Source of the DNA: a virus
Direction: 5' to 3' (one strand)
Length of the DNA stretch: 43,692 nucleotides
Virus record (IMG/VR): IMGVR_UViG_3300017946_000042
Location: 1-43,692 of that record
Positions 4,393-39,148 of this stretch are shown in pieces; position 1 is the stretch's first letter, and each line of letters starts with the position of its first letter. Position numbers and translations under genes: made by a program. The notes beneath the pieces were generated by a model that was given only the letters and a program-made list of their open reading frames with translations, did no database searches and had not been told where the DNA came from.

Positions 4393-5771
4393 ACCACCGA
4401 GAAGGTGTCACCATTCGCAGGCGCGCTCGTGAGTGCCGTGAAGGTCAGCGTGGGCGTCGCGCCGGTCGTGCTGTTGGTGATGTTGCTCGCTTGCGACTGC
4501 AGCGCCGCGCTCGCCGTGTTGGCATCAAACAGGATCGTCCGCCCGATCAGTTGCCCGGTCGCCGTAAGCGAGGAGGGTGACGTCATGGAGGACACCACCG
4601 CGGTCGTGAGCGTGCCTCCCGAGCAGGTGCCGCGAACCACCGCCTGCATGGTGTGCTGGATATTCTGGGGTGCAGTAACGTTGCCGTTAATCGCCTCGAT
4701 GTCGACCTTCGGCAAGTTGTTGGCGTCGGTTGCGGCCGTCTGCGTGTTGTACTGAACGACATTGACACCGATTTGCGCGCTGGTGGTCGAGACGACCGAA
4801 CCGGCGATGTCGCGGACGTCTGCAGGCACCATGCCGGATGCGTGGGTTGAAAGCGCCGAGCCCCCCACGTTGACCAGATTGACACCCAGTTGTGCCGAGC
4901 CTGTCGCGACCGCAGCGCCCGCAATGTCGACAAGGTCAACTTGGAGCAAATTATTGCCGTCGAGCGTCGCTGTCGATCCTGCGATATTAACCACGTTGAC
5001 GCCGAGCTGCGCTGAGCTCGCCGAAACTGCGGAACCAGCGATGTCGACGATGTCGACCTTGGGAAGCCCGTTCGCATCAGTCTGCGTGACCTGGGCGTTG
5101 TATTGCACCGCGTTCACGCCGAGCTGTGCCGTCGTGGTTGACACCGCAACGCCCACGATATCGCGCACGTCCGCCGGGATCATGCCAGCCGCATGGGTCG
5201 AGAGCACCGATCCGCCCACGTCCTCGATGTCGACCTTCGGCAGGCTGTTGGCATCGGTCTGCGCGACCACGTTGTTGTAATTCTTCACGTTGATGTCGGG
5301 TATGCCGGCAGTCGCCGGTGTTGCGACAACTGTGCCCTTCCAGTCCTGGACATTCACCTCCAGAAGATTGTTCGCGTCCAAGGTCACCGCGGAGCCGCCG
5401 ATGTTGACCACATTGACGCCGAGTTGCGCTGTTCCGGTTGCGACGGCCGAGCCAGCGATGTCGACCAGATCGACCTTGATGAAGCCGTTGCCGTCAACCT
5501 GGTCGGTGTGGAAATCGAGATTGCAGGGAACGCATCCGGTCGCCGTAAAGAAGAAGCCGACGTCGGTCGCGTTGGTCTCGGCCTGCGTGGGAGCGTAGTT
5601 GTATTGCCCGTTGCCCTGGCTGGTGACCGTGCCGCCTGTGCCCGCCTGCGCGCCGCCATCCTTGCTCACGTAGCCGGTGACGGTTGCGCCTGCAACGCCG
5701 AGGCCGGTGCTGGTGCTGACAAGGCAGAACGTGAAGTTCTGGCTGGCGACGTTTTTCTGCAGCGAACTCAC
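4389..5771 (-). CDS. Repetitive tail-associated protein (VDIAGSAV repeats)
   Basis: This protein has 460 residues. After an N-terminal domain (about 1-90) that resembles an immunoglobulin or carboxypeptidase-regulatory-like fold (LGVAGATVTGYVSKDGG, GNGQYNYAPTQAETNA, then GFFFTATGCVPCNLDFHTD), residues of about 95-385 are a tandem array. The repeats are of the type [VI]D[IL]-x-GSAV-x-T-x-[ST]AQLGVNVVNI, alternating with DANNLP[KQ]VDIE. The C-terminal 75 residues form a separate domain with a Cys (GTCSGG) and the stretch GRTILFDANTASAALQ. Repeats of this kind occur in phage tail or baseplate proteins and are expected to form an elongated beta structure. It is coupled to both neighbours by ATGA overlaps. 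No enzymatic motif is seen. A structural role is inferred from context and repeats. Confidence 0.7.
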   Translation of the reverse strand: MSSLQKNVASQNFTFCLVSTSTGLGVAGATVTGYVSKDGGAQAGTGGTVTSQGNGQYNYAPTQAETNATDVGFFFTATGCVPCNLDFHTDQVDGNGFIKVDLVDIAGSAVATGTAQLGVNVVNIGGSAVTLDANNLLEVNVQDWKGTVVATPATAGIPDINVKNYNNVVAQTDANSLPKVDIEDVGGSVLSTHAAGMIPADVRDIVGVAVSTTTAQLGVNAVQYNAQVTQTDANGLPKVDIVDIAGSAVSASSAQLGVNVVNIAGSTATLDGNNLLQVDLVDIAGAAVATGSAQLGVNLVNVGGSALSTHASGMVPADVRDIAGSVVSTTSAQIGVNVVQYNTQTAATDANNLPKVDIEAINGNVTAPQNIQHTMQAVVRGTCSGGTLTTAVVSSMTSPSSLTATGQLIGRTILFDANTASAALQSQASNITNSTTGATPTLTFTALTSAPANGDTFSVV

Positions 5772-6619
5772 GAGGCGACGCCCTCGACGACGGTGTTGCG
5801 GCCGATGGTCCAGCCGGGATTGAATCCGGGCTTGAGCGCCATCAATGGCATTCCGATCGACGGCCAGTAAGCTTGCCCACGCAAACCGGCGGAATAGAGT
5901 TGGAGGACTTCGCCTTGATCGAGGGCGCGGTTGTAGATGCGGGCGTCATCGATGTAGCCGGCAAAGAAGCCGGTGAATACTGGTCTATTACCTATGAACA
6001 CATCTTGCGCGGTGACGTTCATAGGGCCAAAGAAATTTGCGGCTGAATTGATCTGAGCCCCATCGACGTACAGTTTCGCTACAGATGTACCGTTAGTGAC
6101 GAATAGGTAAGTGGCTAAAACATGATGCCACTTGCTGTCGTTGTATGTAGGAACACTAGACACTGTCGAATTGCTGCCTCCACCGAATATCTGTAAATTG
6201 ACTGTTCCTGACGTAACGTACAGGCAGAACGAGCGAAGCGTTCCGTTGTCTTTGCACACCACGAAAGCGGTTCCGGCAGACGAGAATTTCACCCAAGCCG
6301 AAACCGCCAGGCCATTTGCCGGGCTTAAAGCTGCGCTCGACGGTATATCAATGTCAGACGTTGAACCGTTGAAATTCAGAGCCTGCCCAATCTGGCCCTG
6401 GACGGCGCTTGACGCCGAAAGACCAGCTAGTGCTCCTACTCCGCCATTGCCGCTTCGATCGACCACCGTCCCCGCGGCGAAATTCACATCCTCCACATCC
6501 ATCGTCCACCAGCCGACGAGGCCGGCGGGAACGACGGCGTCATTGGGCGCTGCGGCGTGCGAGCGCGGGAACAGCCCTCCGTAAGGAGCATAGGCTTGCG
6601 GACGGAGGATGGCATTCAT
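5768..6619 (-). CDS. LamG / concanavalin A-like lectin-domain tail protein
   Basis: This protein has 283 residues. Residues of about 30-250 form a laminin-G-like jelly-roll: LVGWWTMDVEDVN, VDRSGNGGVGALAG, GQALNFNGSTSDIDIPSS, LAVSAWVKF, WHHVLATY, AKLYVDGAQI and the end motif FAGYIDDARIYNRALDQGEVLQLYSAG. These are the canonical landmarks of the LamG-like fold used for carbohydrate binding. The protein is probably a tail appendage binding host surface glycans. It starts with ATG sharing one base with the previous TAA (TAATG) and no obvious ribosome site, so translation is probably coupled. Bases of about 5,960-6,400 are visibly poorer in GC than the flanks, suggesting that the lectin core was acquired by recombination. 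Confidence 0.85.
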   Translation of the reverse strand: MNAILRPQAYAPYGGLFPRSHAAAPNDAVVPAGLVGWWTMDVEDVNFAAGTVVDRSGNGGVGALAGLSASSAVQGQIGQALNFNGSTSDIDIPSSAALSPANGLAVSAWVKFSSAGTAFVVCKDNGTLRSFCLYVTSGTVNLQIFGGGSNSTVSSVPTYNDSKWHHVLATYLFVTNGTSVAKLYVDGAQINSAANFFGPMNVTAQDVFIGNRPVFTGFFAGYIDDARIYNRALDQGEVLQLYSAGLRGQAYWPSIGMPLMALKPGFNPGWTIGRNTVVEGVAS

Positions 6620-27426: not shown

Positions 27427-29340
27427 CTAATACCTCCTAGCGCCCGACCGCCAGTTCCGCGCGGCCTGCGCCTGCTGCCGCCGGACCGTCTGCTTCCGCG
27501 CCATGAAATCAGACATCATCGACTGTTGAAAGAGGTAAACCTGATCGGTGATGCTCAGGCGCTTCTTGGCGGCCTCGGCCTCCCGCGTGCGCCGGCCCGA
27601 AATCAGGGCCTGGCGAATTGCATTTTTCCAATAATAGCATGACAGCCCGAGGCTGAACACCCGGTCATCGTGCATGCTACCCTGAGCACCGATCGAATCG
27701 CCGTCCCGCGACACGTTCTTCATCTCCTCAATCGCGGAGAGCGAGCGCACGCGAAGGAGCCCGTTGGAGACGAAGTTACGCAAGTCCTCCATCAACGGGA
27801 CCTTGTTCTGCACTTGAGTCTTCCAATGAAAATTATGCCCGGGGCCGAACGAATCAGGCCGCGAATAGACGAAAGTGCGCACGTTCGCAAATATGTTCTG
27901 CAACCCCTTCTCGGCTACCTCGGCACGCCGATACCCAGCGTCGATACGCTGTCGCAACGTGCGCAATTCAGTGTAGACCGAAGTACCAGGGCCGTTCAGC
28001 TCTAGAATGTAGCGAATCTCGGACCCCTCCGACGCATACCACCCCATGGTGGCAGCAATCACCCAAGCATACTGCTGGGTAGTAATCAAGGGCCAATTGT
28101 ACTCGGCTACTTGATCTATACCGTCTGCAAAGCAACGCAACACTTGAAAGCTTGACGAGTCGTTTTTGTCATTCTCGCCATAGGCGGTATCTATACCCAT
28201 GACATAAACGGCACCGCGTTCTGGAGGCTCCCACACCTTTAACTCTACGCTCTTATGATTGCCGGCGTGAGCAACTATGAGACTATCGAACTCATCGGCG
28301 ATGTTAAATACGTACCCCGTCCATTTGTGCGAGACGTTGTTGTTGGTCTGCTCGGTGAGTCGAGGTGCACTAAAGAAGATCGATCCAGTTTGCTGAAACG
28401 CTTCATCCTCAGTCCACGGCTGCTCTTGAATGCGAAGCGGATTACCCTCGTAATCGATGTCGTCGACTCCAGTAGACTGGAGCGACGGATCCATGTGCTT
28501 CCTGATCCAAGAAAGTTGCTCGATCGTTATATCGTGATTGTACTTTTCCTTGACAGCCCTAATCTTTTCCAACTCGCGCTCAGACACATCATAAACGCCG
28601 TACTTCTGAAAATCCCGATCTGTCTTGGCGATCGCCTGAGACTGCTTGCACCACCACCCAAGAAATATGCAGCAATTGTGATCCGGGTCGAGCCGCGCAT
28701 CATCCCACATCTGCTTCCACCGATTTGGTCCGCGAGCGGTGGACTCGTAGATGTAGAGCCGGTTCTCATGCACCTCCGAAAGCGAATTGCGAAATGCTTC
28801 CAATCCCTCGTCGTTATCGTAGGAACAGAGCTCCGACAGGTGGGCGATCGTGATGCCGACCGAGCGGCCGAGGGTGCCGCTGCCCTTGGTCTTCTTCACG
28901 CCGGCCGACATGAACAGAAGCTTCGAGTCGTTCGCCAGCGTGGTGCCGAGGCGCACGTTGTCGCGCTTGATCGCCGGGAAGCCGAGAGTCGGCGGCAGGT
29001 CGCCGATCATCGTCACCATCTCGGCGTGGGCTTCAGCCTTGTTCGGGTCGGTGTCGAAGACGATCGCGCCCTTGAGGCCGTGGTGAACGCCGAGAAGGAA
29101 GATGACGAGCGCCCGGATGATGGTGGAGATGCCGAGCTGCCGAGATTTCAGAATCCAGATGTTGCGGATGTCGGCCTCGAGCGCGTCGAAAATCTGCGTG
29201 ATGACGCGGCGCTGCCCCTCGTAGAGGTGCTCCCCGAGGTTGATCGGGCCGAGATCCTTGGAATTGATGACGCAGGCGTCGAGATAGAGGTAGAATGCCC
29301 TCTCGACTTTCAGCCGCTTCTGCCGTGACCAGCCTGCCAT
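27427..29340 (-). CDS. terL: Terminase large subunit
   Basis: This is the 637-residue motor and nuclease that packages DNA. The ATPase Walker A is the variant KSRQLGIST at residues 65-73, typical of phage terminases. The Walker B-like strand is ITIAHLSE with Glu170. The nuclease domain shows GIDTAYGEND (Asp383), YILELNGPG (Glu446) and MHDDRVFSLGLSCYYW near residue 572. Length is normal for the family. The ATG has no Shine-Dalgarno sequence and is preceded by a hairpin. Bases of about 27630-28830 are lower in GC than the flanks. No small-terminase gene is obvious; the short proteins upstream are candidates. Confidence 0.95.
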   Translation of the reverse strand: MAGWSRQKRLKVERAFYLYLDACVINSKDLGPINLGEHLYEGQRRVITQIFDALEADIRNIWILKSRQLGISTIIRALVIFLLGVHHGLKGAIVFDTDPNKAEAHAEMVTMIGDLPPTLGFPAIKRDNVRLGTTLANDSKLLFMSAGVKKTKGSGTLGRSVGITIAHLSELCSYDNDEGLEAFRNSLSEVHENRLYIYESTARGPNRWKQMWDDARLDPDHNCCIFLGWWCKQSQAIAKTDRDFQKYGVYDVSERELEKIRAVKEKYNHDITIEQLSWIRKHMDPSLQSTGVDDIDYEGNPLRIQEQPWTEDEAFQQTGSIFFSAPRLTEQTNNNVSHKWTGYVFNIADEFDSLIVAHAGNHKSVELKVWEPPERGAVYVMGIDTAYGENDKNDSSSFQVLRCFADGIDQVAEYNWPLITTQQYAWVIAATMGWYASEGSEIRYILELNGPGTSVYTELRTLRQRIDAGYRRAEVAEKGLQNIFANVRTFVYSRPDSFGPGHNFHWKTQVQNKVPLMEDLRNFVSNGLLRVRSLSAIEEMKNVSRDGDSIGAQGSMHDDRVFSLGLSCYYWKNAIRQALISGRRTREAEAAKKRLSITDQVYLFQQSMMSDFMARKQTVRRQQAQAARNWRSGARRY

Positions 29341-29635: not shown

Positions 29636-29853
29636 CTTGGGTACTTTCCAGGCGGATACCAAATCCACAGCTTCATCGAGCCATTCCAAACATACAGGCC
29701 CGTGTAGAGCATCAAAGTGTCAGGCGGCGCCATCGATGCGTACTTGCATACGGCGAGAGACTCGGGAATCGTAACTTGGACGTACCGACGATCCGACGAG
29801 TACATCCGGTCATGCCAAGGCCCGTCGTAGCATCGTCCTTCAAACTTCATCAT
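29632..29853 (-). CDS. Small aromatic-rich phage protein
   Basis: This 73-residue protein begins MMKFEGRCYDGPWHDRMY and ends LWIWYPPGKYPR. It is rich in Tyr and Trp, with a single beta-sheet-like body. It is coupled to both neighbours by ATGA overlaps. No family is recognised; it is too polar for a membrane protein. Confidence 0.6.
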   Translation of the reverse strand: MMKFEGRCYDGPWHDRMYSSDRRYVQVTIPESLAVCKYASMAPPDTLMLYTGLYVWNGSMKLWIWYPPGKYPR

Positions 29854-30068
29854 TGCTTCCTGAACTGATACCGCCCCTTAATCTCGGACAAGAACCATTG
29901 CCCGACCGACGGCGCGCGTGAACCCTGGTCCGCCACATCCTCGGGCACGCCCTCGTAGACGTAGGTGCCGCCCTTGGCGAACACGATCGTCATCTCGGGG
30001 GACTCCTCGTCCTCATTGTGCCCGACGGACTGGATCATCGTCGAGAAGACGTCGCGGCTCCACGCCAT
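29850..30068 (-). CDS. KTSC-domain protein
   Basis: The protein has 72 residues. The segment IVFAKGGTYVYEGVPEDVAD followed by SVGQWFLSEIKGRYQFRK has the order of a KTSC domain (F-x-x-G-x-x-Y-x-Y-x-x-VP, then S-x-G-x-[FY]-x2-x-I-[KR]-x-x-Y), a short beta domain common in phages and named after the lysyl-tRNA-synthetase C-terminal region. Its function in phages is not settled. It starts 56 bases inside the upstream gene and is coupled downstream. Confidence 0.75.
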   Translation of the reverse strand: MAWSRDVFSTMIQSVGHNEDEESPEMTIVFAKGGTYVYEGVPEDVADQGSRAPSVGQWFLSEIKGRYQFRKQ

Positions 30069-30249: not shown

Positions 30250-30415
30250 CGGGCTTCCTCTGGAAGCTCGGGCAGCGGAACCGCGAATCGGTGACGAGGC
30301 CGTATTCGAGGGAGGCAGCGTTGCCGCAGGTGCCGACGTGCTCATCCGTTCGCTTCCACGGACCGACGCAGGTCTCGCAGCAGTTGGGGGGCCAGCGCTC
30401 CCATGAGGGTTTCAC
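30236..30415 (-). CDS. Small Cys-rich (putative zinc-binding) protein
   Basis: This 59-residue protein starts with GTG 30415, overlapping the TPR-glycosyltransferase stop (GTGA), with GGAG eight bases upstream. It reads MKPSWERWPPNCCETC and later CGNAASLEYGLVTDSRFRCPSF. Five Cys residues (CCxxC, C, C) could hold a zinc ion. It is otherwise unrecognised. Confidence 0.55.
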   Translation of the reverse strand: MKPSWERWPPNCCETCVGPWKRTDEHVGTCGNAASLEYGLVTDSRFRCPSFQRKPDDQG

Positions 30416-31806
30416 TTCGCGCGCTCCCTCAAAAGCTCGACGATGCTCTCGAACGCGCGGTCCCACCGCATGGACGGCCCCTGGGGGATGATCTTGTGCT
30501 GCGGCGTCCACAGCCGGTCGGTCCCGTCGAGACCGATGCGATGGTCGCGTCCGAGGTAGGAGTAAGGCACCCAGCACTCGTGGTTGACGGCGGCCGCGAT
30601 GTGCCCCAGCGCCGACTCGCACGTGATGACGAGGTCGAGATCGCGCAGCAGGCCCCACGTGTCGCACACGTCCCTGATATACCCCGACAGGTCGCGCACC
30701 AACCCGGCGCCGCCGGCCTCGTGCAGCATGGCCTTCTTGCTGTCGACCTGGAGGCTGTAGAGTTGCACGCCGGGCACGCGCAGCAGCTCGAAGAAGAACT
30801 CGACCGGGATGTTGCGGTGCTTGTCGATCAGGTTCTTGGGACTGCCCGCCCACGCGATACCGACGTGGAGCTTGCGATCGGGGACCATCCAGCCGGGCGG
30901 GGTGTGGCTGCGCCGCATCAGGTTGGACGCCACCTCGATGTTGGGGGCGTTCCTGATCTGCTCGTCGGTCAGGCCCAACGCGAAGGGCAGGGAGACGAAC
31001 GTCGTCCACGCATCAGCGGGCGGAAAGGGGCTCGGACTCGGGGAGAGCGTCAGGTTCGGGATCTTGCGAAAGGCGTGCTGGAACGCCCGCATCAGCTCGC
31101 CCTGCACGAAGGCGTGGACATGACCGGCGCGCGCGCACGCCGCCGGCACGAAGCGGGCGAAGGACAGCGTGTCGCCCAGGCCCTGGTCGGCGACCAGGAA
31201 CACGCTCATGCCCTTCTCGCCCTGCCAGCGCGGGTAGTGATAGTGGTAATACTGCCGAAGCTCCTGGTAGAACCGCACCTCGAAGTGCTTGAGGCCGGCG
31301 GCGAAGTTGTGGTTGAACAGGAGCGCGAAGGCGAGCGCGAGCTCGACCGTCGGCTCGGCCGGCGAGAGGGCAAAGGCGCGCTGCCCCGCCGCCACGCCCT
31401 CGGCGGGCCGCCCGAGGGTGCCGCAAATCTGCGACAGGTTGACCCACGCATAGACGAGCTCGGGGTCGATGTCGATCGCCTGGCGGCTGGCGTTGTAAGC
31501 TTCCTCGGTCTGCCCCACCTGGTGCAGCCGCCAGCCGAGATTGCACAGCACCTTGGCGCGGTCGCGCGCGTCGGGGATGTCGCACGCTAGCGCCTGCCGA
31601 TAGTGAGCGATCGCCGCCGGGTAGCAGCCGCGGTCGCCCTCGTGATTGCCCTGGTGGTAAAAGGCGTTCCACCACGTCGGGTCGGCGAAGCAGGCCGAGC
31701 AGCACGACGCGAAGGCGTGGTCGACCAGCGCCTGCGAGCGATTCGGATCGGCCATCGCCTCGCGCGCGGAGGCGTGGAGCTGCTCGGCGTGTGCGCGGTT
31801 ACCCAT
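30412..31806 (-). CDS. TPR-repeat glycosyltransferase (GT9/GT41-like)
   Basis: The protein has 464 residues. The start is ATG 31806 with GGGAG six bases upstream; the open frame beyond is antisense shadow of the recombinase. Residues 40-175 are TPR-like helix pairs (AIAHYRQALACDIPDARDRA, NLGWRLHQVGQTEEAYNASR, AWVNLSQICGTLGRPAEGVA). Residues 200-464 are a GT-B-type transferase: VFLVADQGLGDTLSFARFVP, then VGIAWAGSPKNLIDKHRNIP, VRDLSGYIRD, LDLVITCESALGHIAAAVNHECWVPYS (pieces). These are landmarks of bacterial TPR-glycosyltransferases related to heptosyltransferase and O-GlcNAc transferase families. The usual Asp in SVDTA is Glu here (TCESA). A donor sugar cannot be predicted. The target could be host surface glycan, a virion protein or phage DNA. 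Confidence 0.85.
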   Translation of the reverse strand: MGNRAHAEQLHASAREAMADPNRSQALVDHAFASCCSACFADPTWWNAFYHQGNHEGDRGCYPAAIAHYRQALACDIPDARDRAKVLCNLGWRLHQVGQTEEAYNASRQAIDIDPELVYAWVNLSQICGTLGRPAEGVAAGQRAFALSPAEPTVELALAFALLFNHNFAAGLKHFEVRFYQELRQYYHYHYPRWQGEKGMSVFLVADQGLGDTLSFARFVPAACARAGHVHAFVQGELMRAFQHAFRKIPNLTLSPSPSPFPPADAWTTFVSLPFALGLTDEQIRNAPNIEVASNLMRRSHTPPGWMVPDRKLHVGIAWAGSPKNLIDKHRNIPVEFFFELLRVPGVQLYSLQVDSKKAMLHEAGGAGLVRDLSGYIRDVCDTWGLLRDLDLVITCESALGHIAAAVNHECWVPYSYLGRDHRIGLDGTDRLWTPQHKIIPQGPSMRWDRAFESIVELLRERAK

Positions 31807-32518
31807 GCGTCGCTCCCACACTCGCATCGTGCACGGCACGCCGCATGATGCGCTGAACCTGCGCGCAGTGAAAGGGCTTACCGTTGCGCGTGCGGTAGCC
31901 CTTGCGATTGAGGGTCTTGGCGGCGCGGTGGGGCGAGCGGCCCTGGCGGGCGAACACGCGGCACTCGTCGAGCACCACCTGCTCGTCGGGCACGGGCTCG
32001 AGTATCGCCTCCTTACCCTCGCCGACGACGCGGAAGCCGAACGGGGCGTCGCCGCCGAGGTGGCCGCCCTTGCGGCGCTTGGCGGCGCGCCCATCGGACA
32101 TTCGTTCGTTGATGCGCTCGCGCTCCAGCTGGGCGAACGCGGCCGCCATTGCAAAAAAGCACGCCGCCATTCCGCCCTCGGTGACCGGGGTCGAGCCCAT
32201 GTCGAGGAGCACCAGCCTGATCCCCTTGCGCTTGAAATCCTCGGCAACCTGCAAGGCGTCGAGCGCGGAGCGGAACATGCGATCGAGCTTGGAGGCGACG
32301 ACCGTGTCGCCGCGGTGGACGTTGAGCAGCAGGTCCTTACCCGCGGGACGCTGGTCGAGCGGGGTGGCGCCGCTCACGGCCGGGTCGGCGAAGATGAGAA
32401 CGGAGTATTGGTCGGCGCCCTGCATCATCGCGTAGCCGCGGATCGTGCGCTCCTGGTCCTCGGGGGAGGTGCCGCTCACCTGCTCTTGCGTTGAGACCCT
32501 GACATAACCGAGGATCAT
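31799..32518 (-). CDS. Serine recombinase (resolvase/invertase family)
   Basis: The protein has 239 residues. The catalytic domain has YVRVSTQEQ with nucleophile Ser9, the SKLDRMFRS arginine motif at about 76-84, and GIRLVLLDMGSTPVTEGGMAACFFAMAAAFAQLERERINERMSDG (pieces), which leads to the long E helix. After it comes a short recombinase domain with RRKGGHLGGDAPFGFRV and RAAKTLNRKGYRTRNGKPFHCAQVQRIMRRA (pieces). It is longer than a minimal invertase and much shorter than a large serine integrase. It could act in integration, inversion or resolution. Its ATG overlaps the 63-residue gene upstream (ATGA), and the pair has its own promoter. Confidence 0.9.
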   Translation of the reverse strand: MILGYVRVSTQEQVSGTSPEDQERTIRGYAMMQGADQYSVLIFADPAVSGATPLDQRPAGKDLLLNVHRGDTVVASKLDRMFRSALDALQVAEDFKRKGIRLVLLDMGSTPVTEGGMAACFFAMAAAFAQLERERINERMSDGRAAKRRKGGHLGGDAPFGFRVVGEGKEAILEPVPDEQVVLDECRVFARQGRSPHRAAKTLNRKGYRTRNGKPFHCAQVQRIMRRAVHDASVGATHG

Positions 32519-32706
32519 CGGGCGAGTTCCTTGATGCTGATGCGGCGCACGTCCGCGTAGTGCTTCTTGGCCTCACGGCGAGAAACATAAACGGCCGGGA
32601 CAGCCCTACCAGCATCACCGCTATGCCCGAAACGGAGATCGAGGCGTCCGTTGAGAAAACCTCCCCACAGGTGTCGCTGGTACCGCTTAACCAAGTTGCG
32701 CTTCAT
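32515..32706 (-). CDS. Small basic protein upstream of the recombinase
   Basis: This 63-residue protein starts MKRNLVKRYQRHLWGGFLNG with a perfect AGGAGG five bases before the ATG. It is Arg/Lys-rich (RREAKKHYADVRRISIKELAR), so nucleic acid binding is plausible. It is translationally coupled to the serine recombinase and could be its accessory or directionality factor. No named domain is recognised. Confidence 0.6.
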   Translation of the reverse strand: MKRNLVKRYQRHLWGGFLNGRLDLRFGHSGDAGRAVPAVYVSRREAKKHYADVRRISIKELAR

Positions 32707-32730
32707 GATCCCCTCCTGCGATGTAGCGCA

Positions 32731-32759
32731 CTTGTAGCACGCTCAGCGGCGTTGCGCAA
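32731..32759 (-). promoter_or_regulatory. Promoter TTGCGC-17-TACAAG for the recombinase operon
   Basis: On the minus strand, TTGCGC (32754-32759) is followed after exactly 17 bases by TACAAG (32731-32736), preceded by TGC. It overlaps the 3' end of the epimerase gene and would start transcription about 18-20 bases before the 63-residue gene. It shares its form with three other sites in this window. Confidence 0.6.
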
Positions 32760-33759
32760 GCACCTGTCGCTGCACCCAGTCGTAGGTGGAGACGAGGCCG
32801 TCGCAGAACGGCACGCTCGGGGTCCACCCGAGCTTTTCCTTCGCGAGGGTGCCGTCGCACAAGCGCACCCGGGCGCCGACGGGACCGGGCGATGGGACGA
32901 TCCGCAGGGGTTTGCCTGCGATCGCGCCGAGCACCTTGGCAAGGTTCATGACGTCCACCGCCTCCTCCGACCCCAGGTTCACCGGCCCGATCACCTCGCT
33001 GCGCATGAGGCGCACGATCCCCTCCACCGCGTCGGTGATGTAGGTGAGCGAGCGCTGCTGGCTGCCGTCACCCCAGATGGGGACCTCCCCGCCTTCGGCG
33101 GGCAATTCGGCGATTTTGCGGCACAGGGAGGCGACGACCTTGGCGCGCGGCTCGCGCCACTCGGCCCTGGGGCCGTACACCTGATGCAGCCGACCGATGC
33201 GCACGGGGAGCGGGTAGGTGCGGCTGTAGGCGTCGTAGATGCGCTCGCAGTAGAGCTTGCTCCAGCCGAACTCGTTCTGCGGGTTTGCGGGGTAGGCATC
33301 GGTCTCGGCGTAGCGTCCGAAATCCTTCTCCACTACGCTGCCATCCCTCATGTAGAGGGTTGCGGCATGAAAATGCACGCCATCGGGCTCGTAGAGCGCC
33401 GGATACACGCACGCCGACGAGGCGAAGAACACGCGGCCGACGCGCGCGCTCACGCACGCCTCGAGCACGTTGAGATTGATCAGGGTGTTGGCGGTTAAAA
33501 TCTTGAGATCGTTGCTCCGGTCCTGGATGTAGCCGAGACCGCCCACCTCGGCGGCCAGCTGATAGACCTCGTCGATATCCTCGAAGTGACGCGGCGGGGC
33601 ATCGAAGCGCAGGTCGGCGCGGTTGTACTCGTCGGCGTCGGACAGGTGCCGGGCCGAGCCGCGGCCGACGGCACGCACGAAAGCGCCCTCGGCCTTGAGG
33701 TGGTTGACGAGGGCGACGCTCAGATGGCCGTTGGCGCCGAGGACGAGGCAACGTCGCAT
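32743..33759 (-). CDS. GDP-mannose 3,5-epimerase-like sugar-nucleotide enzyme with Phe in place of the catalytic Tyr
   Basis: This is a 338-residue protein of the extended short-chain dehydrogenase/reductase fold. The segments QLAAEVGGLGYIQDRSND, FFASSACVYPALYEP, PVRIGRLHQVYGP, IWGDGSQQRSLTYITDAVEGI, VNLGSEEAVDVMNLAK and AKEKLGWTPSVPF line up closely with plant-type GDP-mannose 3,5-epimerase as I remember it. The catalytic Cys (C117) and Lys candidates (K168, K207) are kept. Position 164 in NEFGWSK is Phe (codon TTC) instead of the Tyr of YxxxK, and the nucleotide loop reads GANGHLS instead of GxxGxxG. Either the chemistry is altered or it no longer oxidises its substrate. It follows the 429-residue glycosyltransferase by one base, with GGAGGA before the ATG. 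Confidence 0.85.
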   Translation of the reverse strand: MRRCLVLGANGHLSVALVNHLKAEGAFVRAVGRGSARHLSDADEYNRADLRFDAPPRHFEDIDEVYQLAAEVGGLGYIQDRSNDLKILTANTLINLNVLEACVSARVGRVFFASSACVYPALYEPDGVHFHAATLYMRDGSVVEKDFGRYAETDAYPANPQNEFGWSKLYCERIYDAYSRTYPLPVRIGRLHQVYGPRAEWREPRAKVVASLCRKIAELPAEGGEVPIWGDGSQQRSLTYITDAVEGIVRLMRSEVIGPVNLGSEEAVDVMNLAKVLGAIAGKPLRIVPSPGPVGARVRLCDGTLAKEKLGWTPSVPFCDGLVSTYDWVQRQVLAQRR

Positions 33760-33760
33760 G

Positions 33761-35050
33761 TCACTCCTCCCCGCCTGCGGCGGGTAAAGCGTTCCAATCG
33801 AAGCTCCACCCGGGGATGGAGGGTTGGGGCTCGCGCACCACGATGCCGTGCACCGTCACCCCGGCGTCGAGCGCCGTGAGCATCACGGGGCGGCACGACA
33901 CGGCGGCGGGGAGCAGGACGCTGGCGATGTCGCCCTCTGGCAGGTCGGGCTTGGTCTCGTAGCCGGCTTGCGTGATAGCGGCGCGGCCGGGGCCTGAGAG
34001 CAGGAAGACGATGGGGCCGCAGAGCTCGACCTGCAGGGTAGCCTCGGGCTCGGCGGCGCGCCACGAGAACGGGCCGGGACCACGAGCGAGTCGCCAGCTG
34101 TCGCTCCACTCGGCACCCAGGCCGGCGAGCTGATGGGCGAAGATCACGGTGGTGCCGTCGGGCTGGGGCTGGTGCAGGTCGGCGCCGCCGGGGCGCCACG
34201 TCCCCGCCACCTGCCTTCCATCCAGCATCTCGACACATGCGCGGATGCGCGCGGTACGGATCCCGAAACGCCGAACGATCGGCTCGGGACCGTACATGAT
34301 GTCGTGATGCACGGGGCCGGTGGCGAGCACGAGGCCCTGCTCATCGAGCGGCGGGTCCTGGCCGATCATGCGGCAGCGCGCAGGGGTCAGGGCGAGGCAC
34401 GCGAGGCCGTGGGCGGCGAGCACCGTGCCGACGTGCCAGTCGCTCACGAGGCCGCACTGCTGGGCGCCGAACGCCCAGAACGACGCGATGTCGACGCCGG
34501 CGAGCTGGGCGAACATGCGGCGGTTCTCGATCGCCTGGCAGGTGCGGAAATGACGCAGCCAGAGTTGAGCCGCTTGGCGCGTGGCGATGAACATGCCGTA
34601 GCCGAGGTTGTGCATCAGGGCGAAGGTATCGTCGACCTGAGCGAGCACGCGGTCCTCGTAAGCGCGAGCGCTCACCATGCCGGCCTCGAGGCCGAAGTCG
34701 CGGGCGCGCTCGAACAAAGAGAAGGTGTCGGGGAACCAGTTGGGGTCAAGGAGGACGTCGTTCTCCACGATGCCGACGTAGTCATAGCCTACGCCGTTGC
34801 CCTTGCCGTCCCAACTCTGCGCGAGCATCTCGGTCAAAGCGTAGCAGACAGCGGCATCAGGACCGCCGCGGATGTTGCTGCGCACCGCGCGCACCACCGG
34901 GTACATCAGGGGCAGCTTCTGCCCCGCCACGGTATCGCTGCCGTCGATCCACCAGCTGTCCACGCCGGGGATGTCGAGAAGGGGCTCGATCGACTGGACC
35001 GAGAGGTCGACTTTATCCTTGGTGAGGAACGCGAGGGCGATGCGGTTCAT
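33761..35050 (-). CDS. GT-A-like glycosyltransferase
   Basis: This 429-residue protein starts at ATG 35050 (ATGA overlap). The N-terminal domain has RIALAFLTKDKVDLSVQSI, DSWWIDGSDT, NIRGGPDAAVCYALTEML and YDYVGIVENDVLLDPNWF. This is the strand-helix pattern of family-2-like transferases, with END at 96-98 in the place of the metal-binding DxD. The rest has a conserved HNLGYGMFIATR stretch and a C-terminal beta domain of about 170 residues that could bind carbohydrate. It lies between a second transferase and the epimerase, so the genes probably make or attach one sugar structure. Acceptor and donor are unknown. Confidence 0.75.
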   Translation of the reverse strand: MNRIALAFLTKDKVDLSVQSIEPLLDIPGVDSWWIDGSDTVAGQKLPLMYPVVRAVRSNIRGGPDAAVCYALTEMLAQSWDGKGNGVGYDYVGIVENDVLLDPNWFPDTFSLFERARDFGLEAGMVSARAYEDRVLAQVDDTFALMHNLGYGMFIATRQAAQLWLRHFRTCQAIENRRMFAQLAGVDIASFWAFGAQQCGLVSDWHVGTVLAAHGLACLALTPARCRMIGQDPPLDEQGLVLATGPVHHDIMYGPEPIVRRFGIRTARIRACVEMLDGRQVAGTWRPGGADLHQPQPDGTTVIFAHQLAGLGAEWSDSWRLARGPGPFSWRAAEPEATLQVELCGPIVFLLSGPGRAAITQAGYETKPDLPEGDIASVLLPAAVSCRPVMLTALDAGVTVHGIVVREPQPSIPGWSFDWNALPAAGGEE

Positions 35051-35229
35051 TTCTTCAAGTCCTCGAGCACGGCCATGAACTTCTCGCCGTCGAAATCCCC
35101 GGCCAGCAGCACCAACCACGCGGCGAGTTCGATCGCATCATCATGAGAGATGATGCCGCGTGGCGGGTTGAGAATCCGCAAGCCGTCACCCTGCGAACCA
35201 ACAAAGAACTTGTTCAGCCTGTCGCTCAT
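35047..35229 (-). CDS. Small conserved phage protein in the glycan cluster
   Basis: This protein has 60 residues. The C-terminal part PRGIISHDDAIELAAWLVLLAGD then FMAVLEDLKK resembles short phage proteins that pair an N-terminal strand with a single LAAWLV helix. The ATG at 35229 overlaps the upstream glycosyltransferase stop (ATGA); the longer frame to 35382 is shadow. Function unknown. Confidence 0.65.
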   Translation of the reverse strand: MSDRLNKFFVGSQGDGLRILNPPRGIISHDDAIELAAWLVLLAGDFDGEKFMAVLEDLKK

Positions 35230-36308
35230 AGGACCTTCTCCACGTCGTCGCACCACGCGAGGCCCGCCTCGCGGACCTGCGGGGGCATCCACGGCAGATC
35301 GCGCATCGCCGCGTAAATGTCGCTCAGGATCTGCACGACCGACGCGGTGGGCCAGCCGGAACATGACAACCCGTCCAGCCACGCTGCAAAGTCGAGCGTG
35401 TGGCGCATGCCGAAGGTCTCGGCGGCGAGATCGTCGTGCAGGTCGTGGGGGTTTCGCTCCTGGTAAACCAGCGGCAGGCCAAAGTGCGTGACGTAGCCCA
35501 ACTCGCGCATCACGCGCTGGGTGATCAGGCTCGCCCAGATGTCCTCGTGGCGCCCGACGCCGGGGAGCATCATCATGGCGGGGGCGAGCTCGCGCACGAA
35601 CGCGGTGTTCTGGCTGTTGAACACCGTCCAGGTTTGCTTGGGGTCCACCACCACGCCTGCTCGGGCAATCTCGGCGATGCCGTGAACGCGAGGGGCACCG
35701 GCAATGCGGTCGCAGGCATCGATATCAGGATCTCCGAGCCATAGACCCGCCGCAACACCCACCTTCGCGCCCGTGACTGGGCGCAGTACGGATGGCACGT
35801 CACAAGGGGGGCTATCGCCACGTACCCGGTACGCATGGGGGAACCCGCGGTGGTGGACGGGGGGAAGGGTGAGGGAGCCGGGATCGAACCAGGGGCCGGT
35901 GGCTTGGAGGCCGTGCCATGGGCGATGGGTATCAGGGCGGTCCCACCGCTGAAACAGCGTCTCGAAGTTGATGAAGTAGTCCGAGTCGATCGCCAAATTA
36001 TCGTCGTCCCACAGCACGATGACATCAGCGGCCCACTTGAGCGCAGCGAGCAGGGCGATGTTGCGGCGGCACGATGAGAAGTATGGGGCGTAGGGACGCG
36101 CTGTCAGATCGCGTATGCTGGTCATGTCGGATAGCTTCGTCGGGCCATGATACTCGGCATTGCCGATCTCACGACACAGCGCCTCGATCTCGGCATGCGG
36201 GCTATTGCGGTCACCGGCAACGAAGAAGCGAACAGCCGGGGCGCAGGCCGCCAGCGCGCGCATCGCCACGGGGACTCGGATCGTTGTGGTGGCTACGGCG
36301 ATTTTCAT
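35226..36308 (-). CDS. GT-A-like glycosyltransferase with DDDN motif
   Basis: This 360-residue protein starts at ATG 36308 with GGAG five bases upstream and an ATGA overlap with the preceding gene. The order MKIAVATTTIRVP, FFVAGDRNSP, SSCRRNIALLAALKWAADVIVLWDDDNLAID gives the expected nucleotide-binding fold with DDDN (101-104) as the metal site. Acidic triplets like this occur in reversibly glycosylated polypeptide/STELLO-like transferases, which is the nearest resemblance I can name. The rest is alpha/beta with an HED motif (VGRHEDIWASLI), often part of the acceptor site. It is the first enzyme gene after the RHH regulator and the 70-residue protein. Confidence 0.75.
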   Translation of the reverse strand: MKIAVATTTIRVPVAMRALAACAPAVRFFVAGDRNSPHAEIEALCREIGNAEYHGPTKLSDMTSIRDLTARPYAPYFSSCRRNIALLAALKWAADVIVLWDDDNLAIDSDYFINFETLFQRWDRPDTHRPWHGLQATGPWFDPGSLTLPPVHHRGFPHAYRVRGDSPPCDVPSVLRPVTGAKVGVAAGLWLGDPDIDACDRIAGAPRVHGIAEIARAGVVVDPKQTWTVFNSQNTAFVRELAPAMMMLPGVGRHEDIWASLITQRVMRELGYVTHFGLPLVYQERNPHDLHDDLAAETFGMRHTLDFAAWLDGLSCSGWPTASVVQILSDIYAAMRDLPWMPPQVREAGLAWCDDVEKVL

Positions 36309-36517
36309 TTGCACTCCGAGACGTGCCCGGTGCTGTCGAAGCAAAGCAAAGATCCTGAATAGCTCGACGCGAACCCTGAGACACCCGGCGCTTCCACGCA
36401 CTTGGCGTTGCCGACCTTCTCGCGCACGATCGCGGCGCGGCCTTCGCACGCCTCCTTGCTGTCGTGCAGAGAGGCGATGAGAGAGTTCATCAGAATTGCG
36501 ATCATCACGTACTTCAT
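36305..36517 (-). CDS. Small exported-type protein
   Basis: This 70-residue protein starts with AAGGAG six bases before the ATG. The N-terminus MKYVMIAILMNSLIASLHD is hydrophobic and could be a short signal or anchor. The remainder has four Cys residues (EACEG, AKCVE, LLCFD, SECK), compatible with two disulfides in the periplasm. It is coupled to the glycosyltransferase downstream. Unrecognised. Confidence 0.55.
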   Translation of the reverse strand: MKYVMIAILMNSLIASLHDSKEACEGRAAIVREKVGNAKCVEAPGVSGFASSYSGSLLCFDSTGHVSECK

Positions 36518-36527
36518 GGTGGGCTCC

Positions 36528-36701
36528 TTATGGCTTCCCTATCTCGATCCGCTTCTTCTGCCGTTTCCTCGCAGCCAGCCAATAGCGTATGATCTCGCGA
36601 ATCAAATACGCTTGCGCCACGCGCTGCTCGCTCGCCGCCTCCTTCAAGCCCTGCTTGATGTCGGCTGGGAGGCGGAAGGAGGTCGGGCGGTCCTTGGGCA
36701 A
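36528..36701 (-). CDS. Ribbon-helix-helix regulator of the glycan operon
   Basis: The protein has 57 residues. The chosen start is TTG 36701, six bases after GAGGAG. The frame continues to 36848 but only through hairpins and Arg/Pro-rich shadow. RPTSFRLPADIKQGLKEAASE has the N-terminal strand and first helix, and QAYLIREIIRYWLAAR the second helix, of an Arc/CopG-type DNA-binding protein. Such proteins bind inverted or direct repeats as dimers. Being first in its operon and behind a structured leader, it is a likely autorepressor of the following glycosyltransferase genes. Confidence 0.7.
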   Translation of the reverse strand: MPKDRPTSFRLPADIKQGLKEAASEQRVAQAYLIREIIRYWLAARKRQKKRIEIGKP

Positions 36702-37753: not shown

Positions 37754-37782
37754 GTTGTAGCGCATCAGGGTGGGGGCGTCAA
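37754..37782 (-). promoter_or_regulatory. Promoter TTGACG-17-TACAAC
   Basis: On the minus strand, TTGACG (37777-37782) is followed by 17 bases and TACAAC (37754-37759). The -35 overlaps the last codons of the methyltransferase. The transcript would start about 20 bases before ATG 37726. The sequence TGCGCTACAA-CGACTAC here is nearly repeated at the methyltransferase promoter. Confidence 0.65.
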
Positions 37783-38720
37783 CGAGCCAGTCGGCGCTCG
37801 GCCATCTCGACGTAGGCGGGGTTGAGCTCCATCGTAATCGAGCGGCGGCCGAGGCGGGTCGCCACGAGGGCGGTGGTGCCGGCGCCGCCAAAGGGGTCGA
37901 GGACGACGCCACCGGGTGGGCAGCCAGCGAGGATCGCGGGCTCGATGAGGGCGGGCGGGAAGGTGGCAAAGTGAGCTTCACGGAAGGGAGCCGAGCCGAC
38001 GGTCCAGACGCTGCGCTTGTTGCGCTTGCCATCCGATTTTCGCTCCCCAATCGGGTGCGTGCGCGTCCCCGGGCCAGCTGCTTCCTCTGCGGTTAGCTGT
38101 TCGGATTTAGCACCGCCAAAAGCGTAATTATAACGAGCAGCGCTAGCGGGCGCGGCATCTTCCTTTACCGCCTGCGCATCATAGTAATACTTCTCGCTCT
38201 TGCTTAGCAAGAACAAATACTCGTGCGCCTTGGTGCAGCGATCCATGACGCTCTCAGGCATGGGATTGGGTTTGTGCCAGATGATGTCCTGCCGCAAATA
38301 CCACCCGTCGGCCTGGAGGGCGAACGCGACGCGCCAGGGGATGCCGCAGAGGTCTTTGGGTTTTAATTCGGGCGTTAACTGCACGCGATCTCGCACAGTT
38401 AGTGATCCCTCGTTAATTTTTTGCTTGATATGCTCCGAGTGCCCAGGGTTGCCACCTTTAGCGCTTCCCGCGTAGCTGTCTCCAAGATTTAGCCAGAGCG
38501 TCCCATCAGGGCGCAAGGCGCGTCGCGCTTCGCGGAAGATGGCGGTTAGTTGGGCAACATAGTCGTCGGGCTTGGCTTCGAGCCCGATCTGGCCGGCGAC
38601 GCCGTAATCGCGCAAGCCCCAATAAGGTGGGCTCGTGACGATGCAATTTATGCACTCGGGCGCCATGCGTGGGAGCAAGGCGCGACAGTCGCCGGTGGCG
38701 ATCAGGTACGGGGTGGGCAT
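37779..38720 (-). CDS. Orphan DNA methyltransferase (beta-class, N4-cytosine or N6-adenine type)
   Basis: The protein has 313 residues from ATG 38720; upstream ATGs are in or above the promoter. Catalytic motif IV is TSPPYWGLRDYG (29-40), and the cofactor motif I, DPFGGAGTT, comes last (275-283), the permuted order of beta-class enzymes. TSPPYW favours N4-methylcytosine. The middle, AGSAKGGNPGHSEH to SVWTVGSAPF, holds the target recognition region and is poorer in GC (about 38080-38490). No restriction endonuclease is next to it, so it is probably an orphan that protects phage DNA or tunes expression. Recognition sequence unknown. Confidence 0.92.
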   Translation of the reverse strand: MPTPYLIATGDCRALLPRMAPECINCIVTSPPYWGLRDYGVAGQIGLEAKPDDYVAQLTAIFREARRALRPDGTLWLNLGDSYAGSAKGGNPGHSEHIKQKINEGSLTVRDRVQLTPELKPKDLCGIPWRVAFALQADGWYLRQDIIWHKPNPMPESVMDRCTKAHEYLFLLSKSEKYYYDAQAVKEDAAPASAARYNYAFGGAKSEQLTAEEAAGPGTRTHPIGERKSDGKRNKRSVWTVGSAPFREAHFATFPPALIEPAILAGCPPGGVVLDPFGGAGTTALVATRLGRRSITMELNPAYVEMAERRLAR

Positions 38721-38727
38721 GTAGTCG

Positions 38728-38756
38728 CTTGTAGCGCACATGGGGCGGGGAGGCAA
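38728..38756 (-). promoter_or_regulatory. Promoter TTGCCT-17-TACAAG, apparently leaderless
   Basis: On the minus strand, TTGCCT (38751-38756) is followed by 17 bases and TACAAG (38728-38733). The first A of the methyltransferase ATG is 38720, seven to eight bases after the -10, exactly where transcription should begin. No ribosome site is present. A leaderless mRNA is therefore likely. Confidence 0.6.
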
Positions 38757-39148
38757 GCGTAGCGGGATACCTATCAAAAAGAAAATTTCCGGGGAGGGGA
38801 TACACGTTGGGGTGCCTTCATACGCACTTGCGCGTGGGCCGATCGGTGCGGGCTTTACGCTGCGGCATGCACCCTTAGCCTGTGTACAGAACGGTAGGTC
38901 ACAGGCGCGATTCGGTCGAACGGTTTTGCCCCTCCGAGCCTCGATCGAAAGCGCACCAGGCGCGTCGCGCGCCGCTAACCGCTTGACGCAGCTAAGGTCT
39001 TTGCGCCTGGGAGCTCGAAACCAAGGTACAGCGCTTTAAGGGCGTACCGTGCGCTGGCGCGGTGTCTATCACAATAATTTGATCTGAAAAGCGCCGCGGC
39101 GCGGTGCACAGGCTAGCGCGCCTCGATCGCGGGAGTAGGCTCGGCGCC
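38757..39148. other. Intergenic control region between divergent genes
   Basis: About 390 bases with no convincing gene lie between the leftward methyltransferase promoter and the rightward helix-turn-helix gene. The region holds an inverted repeat GCCTGTG / CACAGGC (38878-38884 with 38900-38906, 15-bp gap) and a second imperfect dyad around GGTAC...GTACC near 39005-39028. An AT-richer patch, TATCACAATAATTTGATC, at about 39067-39084 could hold the -10 of the rightward gene. This is the only long non-coding stretch in the window and a natural place for operators, an attachment site or an origin. Confidence 0.5.
38878..38906. promoter_or_regulatory. Inverted repeat, candidate operator
   Basis: Perfect 7-bp arms GCCTGTG and CACAGGC are separated by 15 bases in the non-coding region between divergent genes. 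The centre-to-centre distance of 22 bp (two helical turns) suits a dimeric regulator, for example the HTH protein encoded at 39149-39496. Confidence 0.4.

Follow-up and report, generated by a model that had tools for sequence, protein, structure and literature searches.

The genes at positions 30412 to 36701 of the window, by which we mean the whole stretch of 43,692 nucleotides analysed here (IMG/VR virus record IMGVR_UViG_3300017946_000042), are a core set of an uncultured lineage of soil and freshwater phages with records of ca 60–68 kb. We propose that this block is a conserved operon that makes an unusual GDP-furanose donor and attaches the sugar to a protein that most likely belongs to the virion, and we put the probability of this reading at roughly 0.45.

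The named genes of the block are all intact open frames on the minus strand, running from about 36.7 to 30.4 kb (Table 1), and the packing is tight, with gene overlaps of 4–8 nt at most junctions. The block is flanked by the packaging genes on one side and by a DNA methyltransferase gene (37779–38777) on the other, and it continues into the KTSC, TerL and portal genes on the same single strand. This confirms the glycan block originally noted next to the packaging genes, together with both motifs (END and DDDN) and the GME-like SDR. An RHH regulator had also been placed at the head of the block; the match is there, but it is weak, and some relatives (L030, L042, L051 and L053) have small RHH-like proteins, again with weak matches, upstream of their mutase. 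The KTSC gene is present in most related loci, while the 60-aa ORF has relatives only as near-identical copies among the related loci compared. Scans for tRNAs and Rfam families gave no matches, the promoter and terminator scan gave a signal near the shuffle level, and a nucleotide search of INPHARED gave no match.

Table 1. Features of the block and of the adjoining packaging genes, in the order in which they are read.
Feature	Position	Strand	Length and evidence
RHH (CopG-like) protein	36528–36701	−	57 aa, TTG start; PF01402 E=2e-4, phrog_7325 E=2e-4 (weak)
70-aa ORF	36305–36517	−	hydrophobic N-terminus; 4-nt overlap with mutase start; no Pfam/PHROG family match
GT75/MtdL-like mutase, predicted ("DDDN" protein)	35226–36308	−	360 aa; PF03214, PDB 7yua
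60-aa ORF	35047–35229	−	between mutase and END, overlaps both
Putative "END" transferase	33761–35050	−	429 aa; GT-A domain and C-terminal beta-rich part
GME homologue (extended SDR)	32743–33759	−	338 aa; PDB 8sg0/2c5a, phrog_540
63-aa ORF	32515–32706	−	4-nt overlap with recombinase start
Small serine recombinase	31799–32518	−	239 aa; PF00239 E=1e-30, PF07508 E=0.0015, phrog_95/125
TPR + GT-B protein	30412–31806	−	464 aa; TPR Pfam matches
KTSC-domain protein	29850–30068	−	PF13619 E=1e-12; between TPR gene and terminase
Terminase large subunit (TerL)	27427–29340	−	phrog_2 E=8e-16

The lineage is defined by the neighbouring TerL (alignment A9), which has at least 599 pattern matches in IMG/VR. 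Upstream of the terminase the gene order is mutase, END, GME or another SDR, recombinase and TPR, and the neighbourhood search that had been suggested for the same enzymes in other phages recovers the identical order in tens of divergent IMG/VR contigs, which means that the block is not a chance assembly. At 32 loci selected by their terminase, the TPR gene occurs in 30, END in 28, the mutase in 25 and the recombinase in 24; END and TPR are found together in 27, and the complete five-gene order in 20. The mutase is present in 27 of 28 records. Some relatives (L017 and L050) are without a complete SDR, and the GME/SDR gene adjoins GT75 also in phages that have no END, e.g. L180, L181, L203, L208 and L212. 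Within this lineage, the pairing of a GME with a TPR transferase, first taken to be unusual, is the norm. A wholly decayed cluster is ruled out by the long open frames and by the catalytic residues kept across divergent phages. Neither two or more non-transferases among the presumed transferases nor general decay of the active sites was found, but one catalytic site is changed, namely that of the GME, where a Tyr has become Phe.

We now turn to the individual enzymes. The "DDDN" protein matches PF03214 with 28.5 bits (cut-off 23.8) and aligns with MtdL (PDB: 7yua) over nearly its full length, with E=4e-26 for the single sequence and E=1e-44 for a profile of the A8 alignment. There is thus strong family and residue evidence for a GT75/reversibly-glycosylated-polypeptide homologue, predicted to be a GDP-sugar pyranose/furanose mutase with a GT-A core. 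Being MtdL-like, it would be a mutase and not a sugar-attaching enzyme, and the proposed set of three glycosyltransferases is therefore reduced to two, END and the TPR protein (TPR-GT). The window mutase keeps the MtdL residues D40, N42, S86, R90, D109–D111 (the DDD motif), N112, R159, D195, S228, Q229, R257, D260, R289 and H292, of which the equivalents of the catalytic residues R159, the glycosylated Arg, and D260, as well as of D195 and R257, are found without exception across the aligned phage mutases. The guanine-type pocket of MtdL (Thr13, Asn42, Ser86) is matched by T8, N35 and a Ser at the S86 position; Thr8 is invariant among the aligned phage mutases, and position 86 is never Asp, unlike Asp86 of the UDP-type RGPs. 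Two residues differ from MtdL, D87 being Ser and H287 being Gln. The position of the Mn ligand His287 is occupied by Gln in most phage mutases as well, and that of Asp87, a residue characteristic of the GDP-sugar members of GT75, by Ile or Leu in most of them, while some SDR2-linked phage mutases have His and Asp at these two positions. In MtdL itself, the D87S variant is inactive (PMC9937993).

The SDR of the window matches the plant GME (PDB: 8sg0/2c5a) with E~1e-60, and also phrog_540. It keeps the Cys145/Lys217 epimerisation pair and Arg306, but the catalytic Tyr of the YxxxK motif (Tyr174) is Phe, as it is in 17 relatives; these Phe-type enzymes form one clade of 18 phages on the tree (SH-aLRT 87). 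At the end of beta2, the NAD-binding Asp58 is replaced in 18/18 members of this clade by Ala, Gly or Ser followed by Arg ("GR" in the window), whereas it is Asp in all 16 GMEs of the Tyr group. This replacement points to an NADP-type pocket, and together with the loss of the Tyr it means that the product of the window enzyme cannot be named. Since the mutase also deviates from MtdL at Asp87 and His287, the exact reaction is assured for neither enzyme. The Phe-type enzyme might, for example, carry out a 3,5-epimerisation or a reduction of a 4-keto GDP-sugar; in one relative (L023) a GDP-mannose 4,6-dehydratase gene lies just upstream of the Phe-type GME and would provide such a 4-keto substrate. 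The more specific scenario, that the lineage glycosylates virion proteins with a self-made L-furanose and that the GME-derived enzyme of the Phe clade, with its NADP-type pocket, has evolved a different reaction, we consider rather doubtful.

For END, no match is obtained in Pfam, PHROG or NCBIfam, nor in a profile search of the PDB, and the protein, which has a C-terminal beta-rich part, represents a new sequence family. Its AF2 model (pLDDT 88.8) resembles GT-A enzymes in Foldseek, namely SpsA, GnTI, LH3, mannosylglycerate synthase and WrtF, with E down to 1e-7, and the metal motif ExD (E96, D98) is invariant in an alignment of 29 sequences; END is accordingly predicted, on the basis of the model, to have a GT-A fold with an acidic metal motif. 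A collagen-like acceptor, considered because of the Foldseek likeness to collagen glycosyltransferases, was rejected, as GXY repeats are absent from the minus-strand frames and no tandem repeats are found.

The best start of the TPR gene is the ATG at 31806, overlapping the end of the recombinase gene. The AF2 model of TPR-GT (pLDDT 91.9) consists of a TPR superhelix and a GT-B fold, and the top Foldseek matches are all SPY/OGT proteins, with SPINDLY as the best and XcOGT among them (E 4e-11 to 8e-10), although the whole-chain TM-scores are low (0.36). The catalytic domain gives no GT41 match in Pfam, and PF01075 (GT9) matches weakly in 2 of 36 members. The predicted fold is closest to that of the SPINDLY/OGT (GT41) protein O-glycosyltransferases. 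SPY uses GDP-fucose (PMC9715652), and in the flagellin transferase FlmG the TPRs bind the acceptor protein (PMC7591256).

The small serine recombinase, whose gene lies inside the block between the epimerase and TPR genes, had been overlooked. It has a Resolvase N-terminal domain and a short C-terminal piece resembling the start of the large-serine-recombinase domain, and it keeps the catalytic RVST motif. An invertible switch operated by the recombinase was considered and rejected: the window, L015 and L023 have inverted repeats, but these are short or imperfect and are not found at corresponding positions.

On the proposed reading, the pathway would proceed in three steps. As suggested by its family, the GME-type SDR, or the other SDR in related phages, would act on a host GDP-hexose, e.g. 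GDP-mannose or the 4-keto form derived from it, and convert it to a GDP-L-hexose or a related sugar. Next, as family and residues indicate, the GT75 mutase would turn the pyranose ring of that sugar into a furanose; in antibiotic producers this step yields GDP-L-galactofuranose or GDP-L-fucofuranose. Finally, going by the folds, the two soluble transferases would consume the GDP-furanose donor. TPR-GT, which is SPINDLY/OGT/FlmG-like, would use its TPR coil to hold a protein and begin a glycan on Ser/Thr, and END would lengthen the glycan or act on another site. As the genes lie head to tail in the packaging/head cluster, the presumed acceptor is most likely a virion protein produced simultaneously, and its sugar would protect the particle or adjust binding to the host. 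The conservation of the sugar-forming SDR, the GDP-sugar mutase and the two transferases as a set supports, in general terms, the original idea that a specific sugar is made and then transferred to a host or virion target.

Serotype conversion and DNA-base modification, two of the targets originally suggested, become less likely. The former belongs to a scenario in which the enzymes alter the LPS or capsule of an infected or lysogenic cell, leading to serotype conversion or superinfection exclusion; we regard it as unlikely, yet the strongest competitor. Galactofuranose and fucofuranose do occur in bacterial surface glycans, and in cyanophages GME and GT75 form part of large glycan loci that also contain heptose and fucosyltransferase genes. 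However, the GtrA flippase family is found in 0/28 records with a positive control, no gene of the block matches transmembrane transferases in Pfam, PHROG or NCBIfam, and the genes are located in the packaging cluster. There is also little sign of prophages, as only one of 84,980 genomes, a 42.6-kb contig with the title "loop", has an END relative in a pattern scan, and no tyrosine integrase is found above the cut-off in the 28 records (one match lies below it).

Still less likely is that an OGT-like effector modifies a cytoplasmic host protein, for takeover or counter-defence, instead of the virion. OGT/SPY enzymes do work on intracellular proteins (PMC9715652), and the RHH protein could time expression, but the genes sit in the packaging/head cluster and not among early genes, and supplying the donor through several genes is expensive for an effector that acts early. 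Glycosylation of hydroxymethylated bases against restriction is improbable. Some phages have GT-A base transferases, and Foldseek gives a match to the TET-associated transferase of phage phiRSL1; on the other hand, the architecture of TPR-GT suggests a protein acceptor, and thymidylate synthase, the type to which such hydroxymethylases belong, is found in 0/28 records (control positive), with the proviso that the window record is a fragment and that DNA-modification genes may lie beyond its ends. A Tet_JBP search gave no match, but its control was also silent and the result is hence uninformative. That the genes merely feed cell-wall or carbon metabolism of the host, in line with soil-phage GT75 and GT2 genes having been called, as cited in PMC12016548, auxiliary genes tied to cell-membrane components and carbon sequestration, is very improbable, because the strict order, the packing against the terminase and the presence in nearly all members indicate a core function and not optional metabolism.

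Glycosylation of a virion protein by a phage-made furanose donor would be a new combination of known kinds of enzyme, with a target that we infer. Characterised bacterial GT75 mutases have so far come from antibiotic pathways only (PMC9937993), and the literature searched yielded no report on phage GDP-L-galactose or galactofuranose. Here, a predicted GT75 mutase belongs to the core operon of a large phage lineage without cultured members, together with a SPINDLY/OGT-like transferase and a new GT-A family. This combination suggests a dedicated phage system for protein furanosylation and offers a concrete way, other than "carbon sequestration", of interpreting GT75 genes in phages; the Tyr-less GME clade poses a sharp, testable biochemical question.

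It is instructive to compare the block with known systems. Like the gtrABC serotype-conversion cassettes of temperate phages, it is a phage-borne glycosyltransferase operon, but it has no GtrA flippase, identified membrane transferase or clear tyrosine integrase. With SPINDLY/OGT (GT41) and Caulobacter FlmG it shares an N-terminal TPR superhelix followed by a C-terminal GT-B domain (PMC9715652, PMC7591256). The phage TPR region is, however, short, and the identity is about 15% or less, with no GT41 sequence match. The Synechococcus phages S-T4 and Sf-CH8 have both GME and GT75 homologues within about 8 kb, the latter annotated only as a hypothetical or membrane protein. Their loci differ in being large, with heptose genes, in giving no match to END, the recombinase or TPR-GT, and in a GME that retains the catalytic Tyr. 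A parallel to the donor pathway is the sugar pathway of the antibiotic A201A in Marinactinospora, in which MtdM is reportedly the GME. There, a GME-type epimerase followed by the GT75 mutase MtdL provides a GDP-L-furanose donor (MtdL: PMC9937993). The phage block has this same pair, which is behind GDP-L-galactofuranose in A201A biosynthesis, but accompanies it with END and the TPR transferase; and with an epimerase that has lost its catalytic Tyr and a mutase with Ser at Asp87 and Gln at His287, the phage product may be another sugar.

The window is an IMG/VR record, and near-identical contigs come from other datasets, namely 3300041417_000036 (99.99% identity across 19 kb) and 3300017948_000051 (99.97% across 6.4 kb). 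From 36.7 to 30.4 kb, the minus strand encodes an RHH protein, a 70 aa protein, the mutase, a 60 aa protein, END, the GME homologue, a 63 aa protein, a serine recombinase and the TPR transferase, followed by small genes (including that of a KTSC protein), the terminase, a 179-aa protein and a probable portal. At most junctions in the block, neighbouring genes share 4 to 8 nt, and every listed frame is intact; co-transcription of the sugar block with the packaging genes is therefore probable. Scans for promoters and terminators gave results near shuffle level.

Features of the window and of loci in related phages (L-numbers)
Feature	Coordinates	Remarks
Mutase ('DDDN' protein)	window 35226..36308 (-)	360 aa
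END	window 33761..35050 (-)	429 aa
GME homologue	window 32743..33759 (-)	338 aa
Serine recombinase	window 31799..32518 (-)	239 aa
TPR transferase	window 30412..31806 (-)	464 aa
TerL	window 27427..29340 (-)	
Concanavalin-A/laminin-G-like lectin protein	window 5768-6619	PF13385 E=4e-26; structural region
GDP-mannose 4,6-dehydratase-like gene	L023:4139-6160	split by intein-like insertion (Intein_splicing, LAGLIDADG_3)
Short SDR-like ORF	L050:8484-8963	160 aa, PF01370 E=5e-5; full SDR in relatives at that place; perhaps a remnant
Family-less proteins adjoining END	L040:468-1316; L042:5679-6461; L051:6052-6831; L053:6195-6932	
NDP-sugar-type C-methyltransferase (PF08421/PF08484) and GT2-like protein	L130:5601-9684	at TPR site
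Methyltransferase-TPR-GT9 fusion	L122:138-4888	at site of related phage
Cyanophage GT75 mutases	L009:11998-12906 (S-T4); L010:12049-12906 (Sf-CH8)	annotated hypothetical or putative membrane protein

The 'DDDN' protein, taken for a GT-A-like transferase in the original prediction, matches Pfam RGP above the family cut-off. Its only convincing PDB match is MtdL (E=4e-26), against which a profile of 25 phage mutases scores E=1e-44. MtdL is the GT75 mutase that provides GDP-L-galactofuranose for the antibiotic A201A, and it also interconverts GDP-L-fucopyranose and GDP-L-fucofuranose (PMC9937993). D109, R159, D195, Q229, R257 and D260, which were shown to be essential in MtdL (PMC9937993), are all retained in the window mutase; R159, D195, R257 and D260 are invariant among the phage homologues aligned, and the window pocket, with Thr8, Asn35 and a Ser matching S86, is of the guanine type. 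Two positions differ: Ser (Ile or Leu in most relatives) stands at Asp87, which contacts the sugar in MtdL, and Gln replaces His287, a Mn ligand. The assignment to GT75 and to a guanine nucleotide is thus firm, whereas that of the sugar is not.

The GME homologue has the plant GDP-mannose 3,5-epimerases as its best PDB matches (E about 1e-60) and retains the equivalents of Cys145, Lys178, Lys217 and Arg306, with Phe at the position of the catalytic Tyr174. Such Phe-type GMEs, from 18 phages, form one group in a tree of 35 homologues (SH-aLRT 87, branch not starred), in which the Arabidopsis reference chain is, as the 8sg0 sequence indicates, itself a Phe mutant. In the same 18 proteins the Asp ending beta2 is replaced by Ala, Gly or Ser and then Arg, as is typical of NADP pockets; the Tyr-type relatives retain this Asp (16/16). 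Together these replacements suggest a shift in chemistry that has been conserved, rather than decay. A different SDR occupies the GME slot in some members of the lineage, and mapping slot type (GME, other SDR or none) on the terminase tree requires six changes. In L023, the dehydratase-like gene sits upstream of a Phe-type GME, within that phage's version of the module.

The window END has no Pfam, PHROG or NCBIfam match, and single relatives give weak matches to GT2 models. Its AlphaFold2 model (pLDDT 88.8) matches GT-A enzymes in Foldseek, among them SpsA, GnTI, LH3, mannosylglycerate synthase and WrtF, a GDP-fucose enzyme, and E96 and D98 are invariant across 29 homologues. Since further Foldseek matches are carbohydrate-active enzymes bearing beta-rich accessory domains, and the C-terminal 130 residues are rich in strands, this region of the model is possibly a carbohydrate-binding part. 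No END match was found in INPHARED. The END-adjoining proteins of several relatives have the motif 'P..P.EDAGIRAGE...YR.W' in common, and the one tested gave no Pfam match.

The best 50 structural matches of the TPR protein model (pLDDT 91.9) are SPINDLY and bacterial or human OGT. SPINDLY, a GT41 enzyme, O-fucosylates proteins with GDP-fucose as donor (PMC9715652), and the flagellins that are glycosylated in Caulobacter are bound by the TPR domain of FlmG, which is fused to a GT-B domain (PMC7591256). The C-domain sequence matches GT9 weakly in 2 of 36 members and gives no clear GT41 match; we therefore suggest that the protein works like a GT41 enzyme, and do not claim membership.

With the families established, a route can be proposed in which the SDR would make a GDP-sugar, the GT75 mutase would contract its ring to give a GDP-furanose, and the two soluble transferases would transfer it, the TPR enzyme picking the protein acceptor. 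We infer both the donor and the acceptor, and prefer a virion protein as the latter because the genes occupy the packaging/head cluster, because GtrA flippase and the thymidylate-synthase family (each 0/28 records, with the controls responding) and a tyrosine integrase above cut-off were not found in 28 records, and because a pattern scan met an END relative in just 1 of 84,980 genomes of bacteria and archaea. The lectin-like protein of the window may be a part of the virion that binds the host or a glycan.

Loci were gathered by scans with single proteins and alignments (50 via the TPR protein, the best 80 via the terminase). For 32 of the terminase-selected loci, 9 kb or more of upstream sequence is available; of these, 30 have TPR, 28 END, 25 the mutase, 12 GME and 13 another SDR, and 20 hold the full five-gene set. 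Since the terminase alignment was made from module-bearing phages and its 80 best matches were used, these fractions are valid for this lineage only. The serine recombinase, present in 24, is tied into the sugar operon by gene overlaps. Of 28 whole records, between 41 and 68 kb long, 27 have the mutase; as these records were picked for carrying the module, the figure shows just that it is contained in the linear fragments. In some outer members, L130 among them, the TPR protein keeps its position and different sugar genes accompany it, and the site therefore appears to be a glycan-modification locus with the TPR transferase as its constant part.

Each kind of enzyme in the block is already known, and GT75 has been mentioned before as an auxiliary gene of soil phages (cited in PMC12016548). 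In the literature searched, we found neither a core phage operon with this combination, nor the END family, nor a GME clade with Tyr replaced by Phe and an NADP-type pocket. Other phage contigs have GT75 adjoining GME or another SDR, without END, and two cyanophage types carry both GT75 and GME; the GT75 mutases of cyanophages S-T4 and Sf-CH8 have gone unrecognised under their present annotations.
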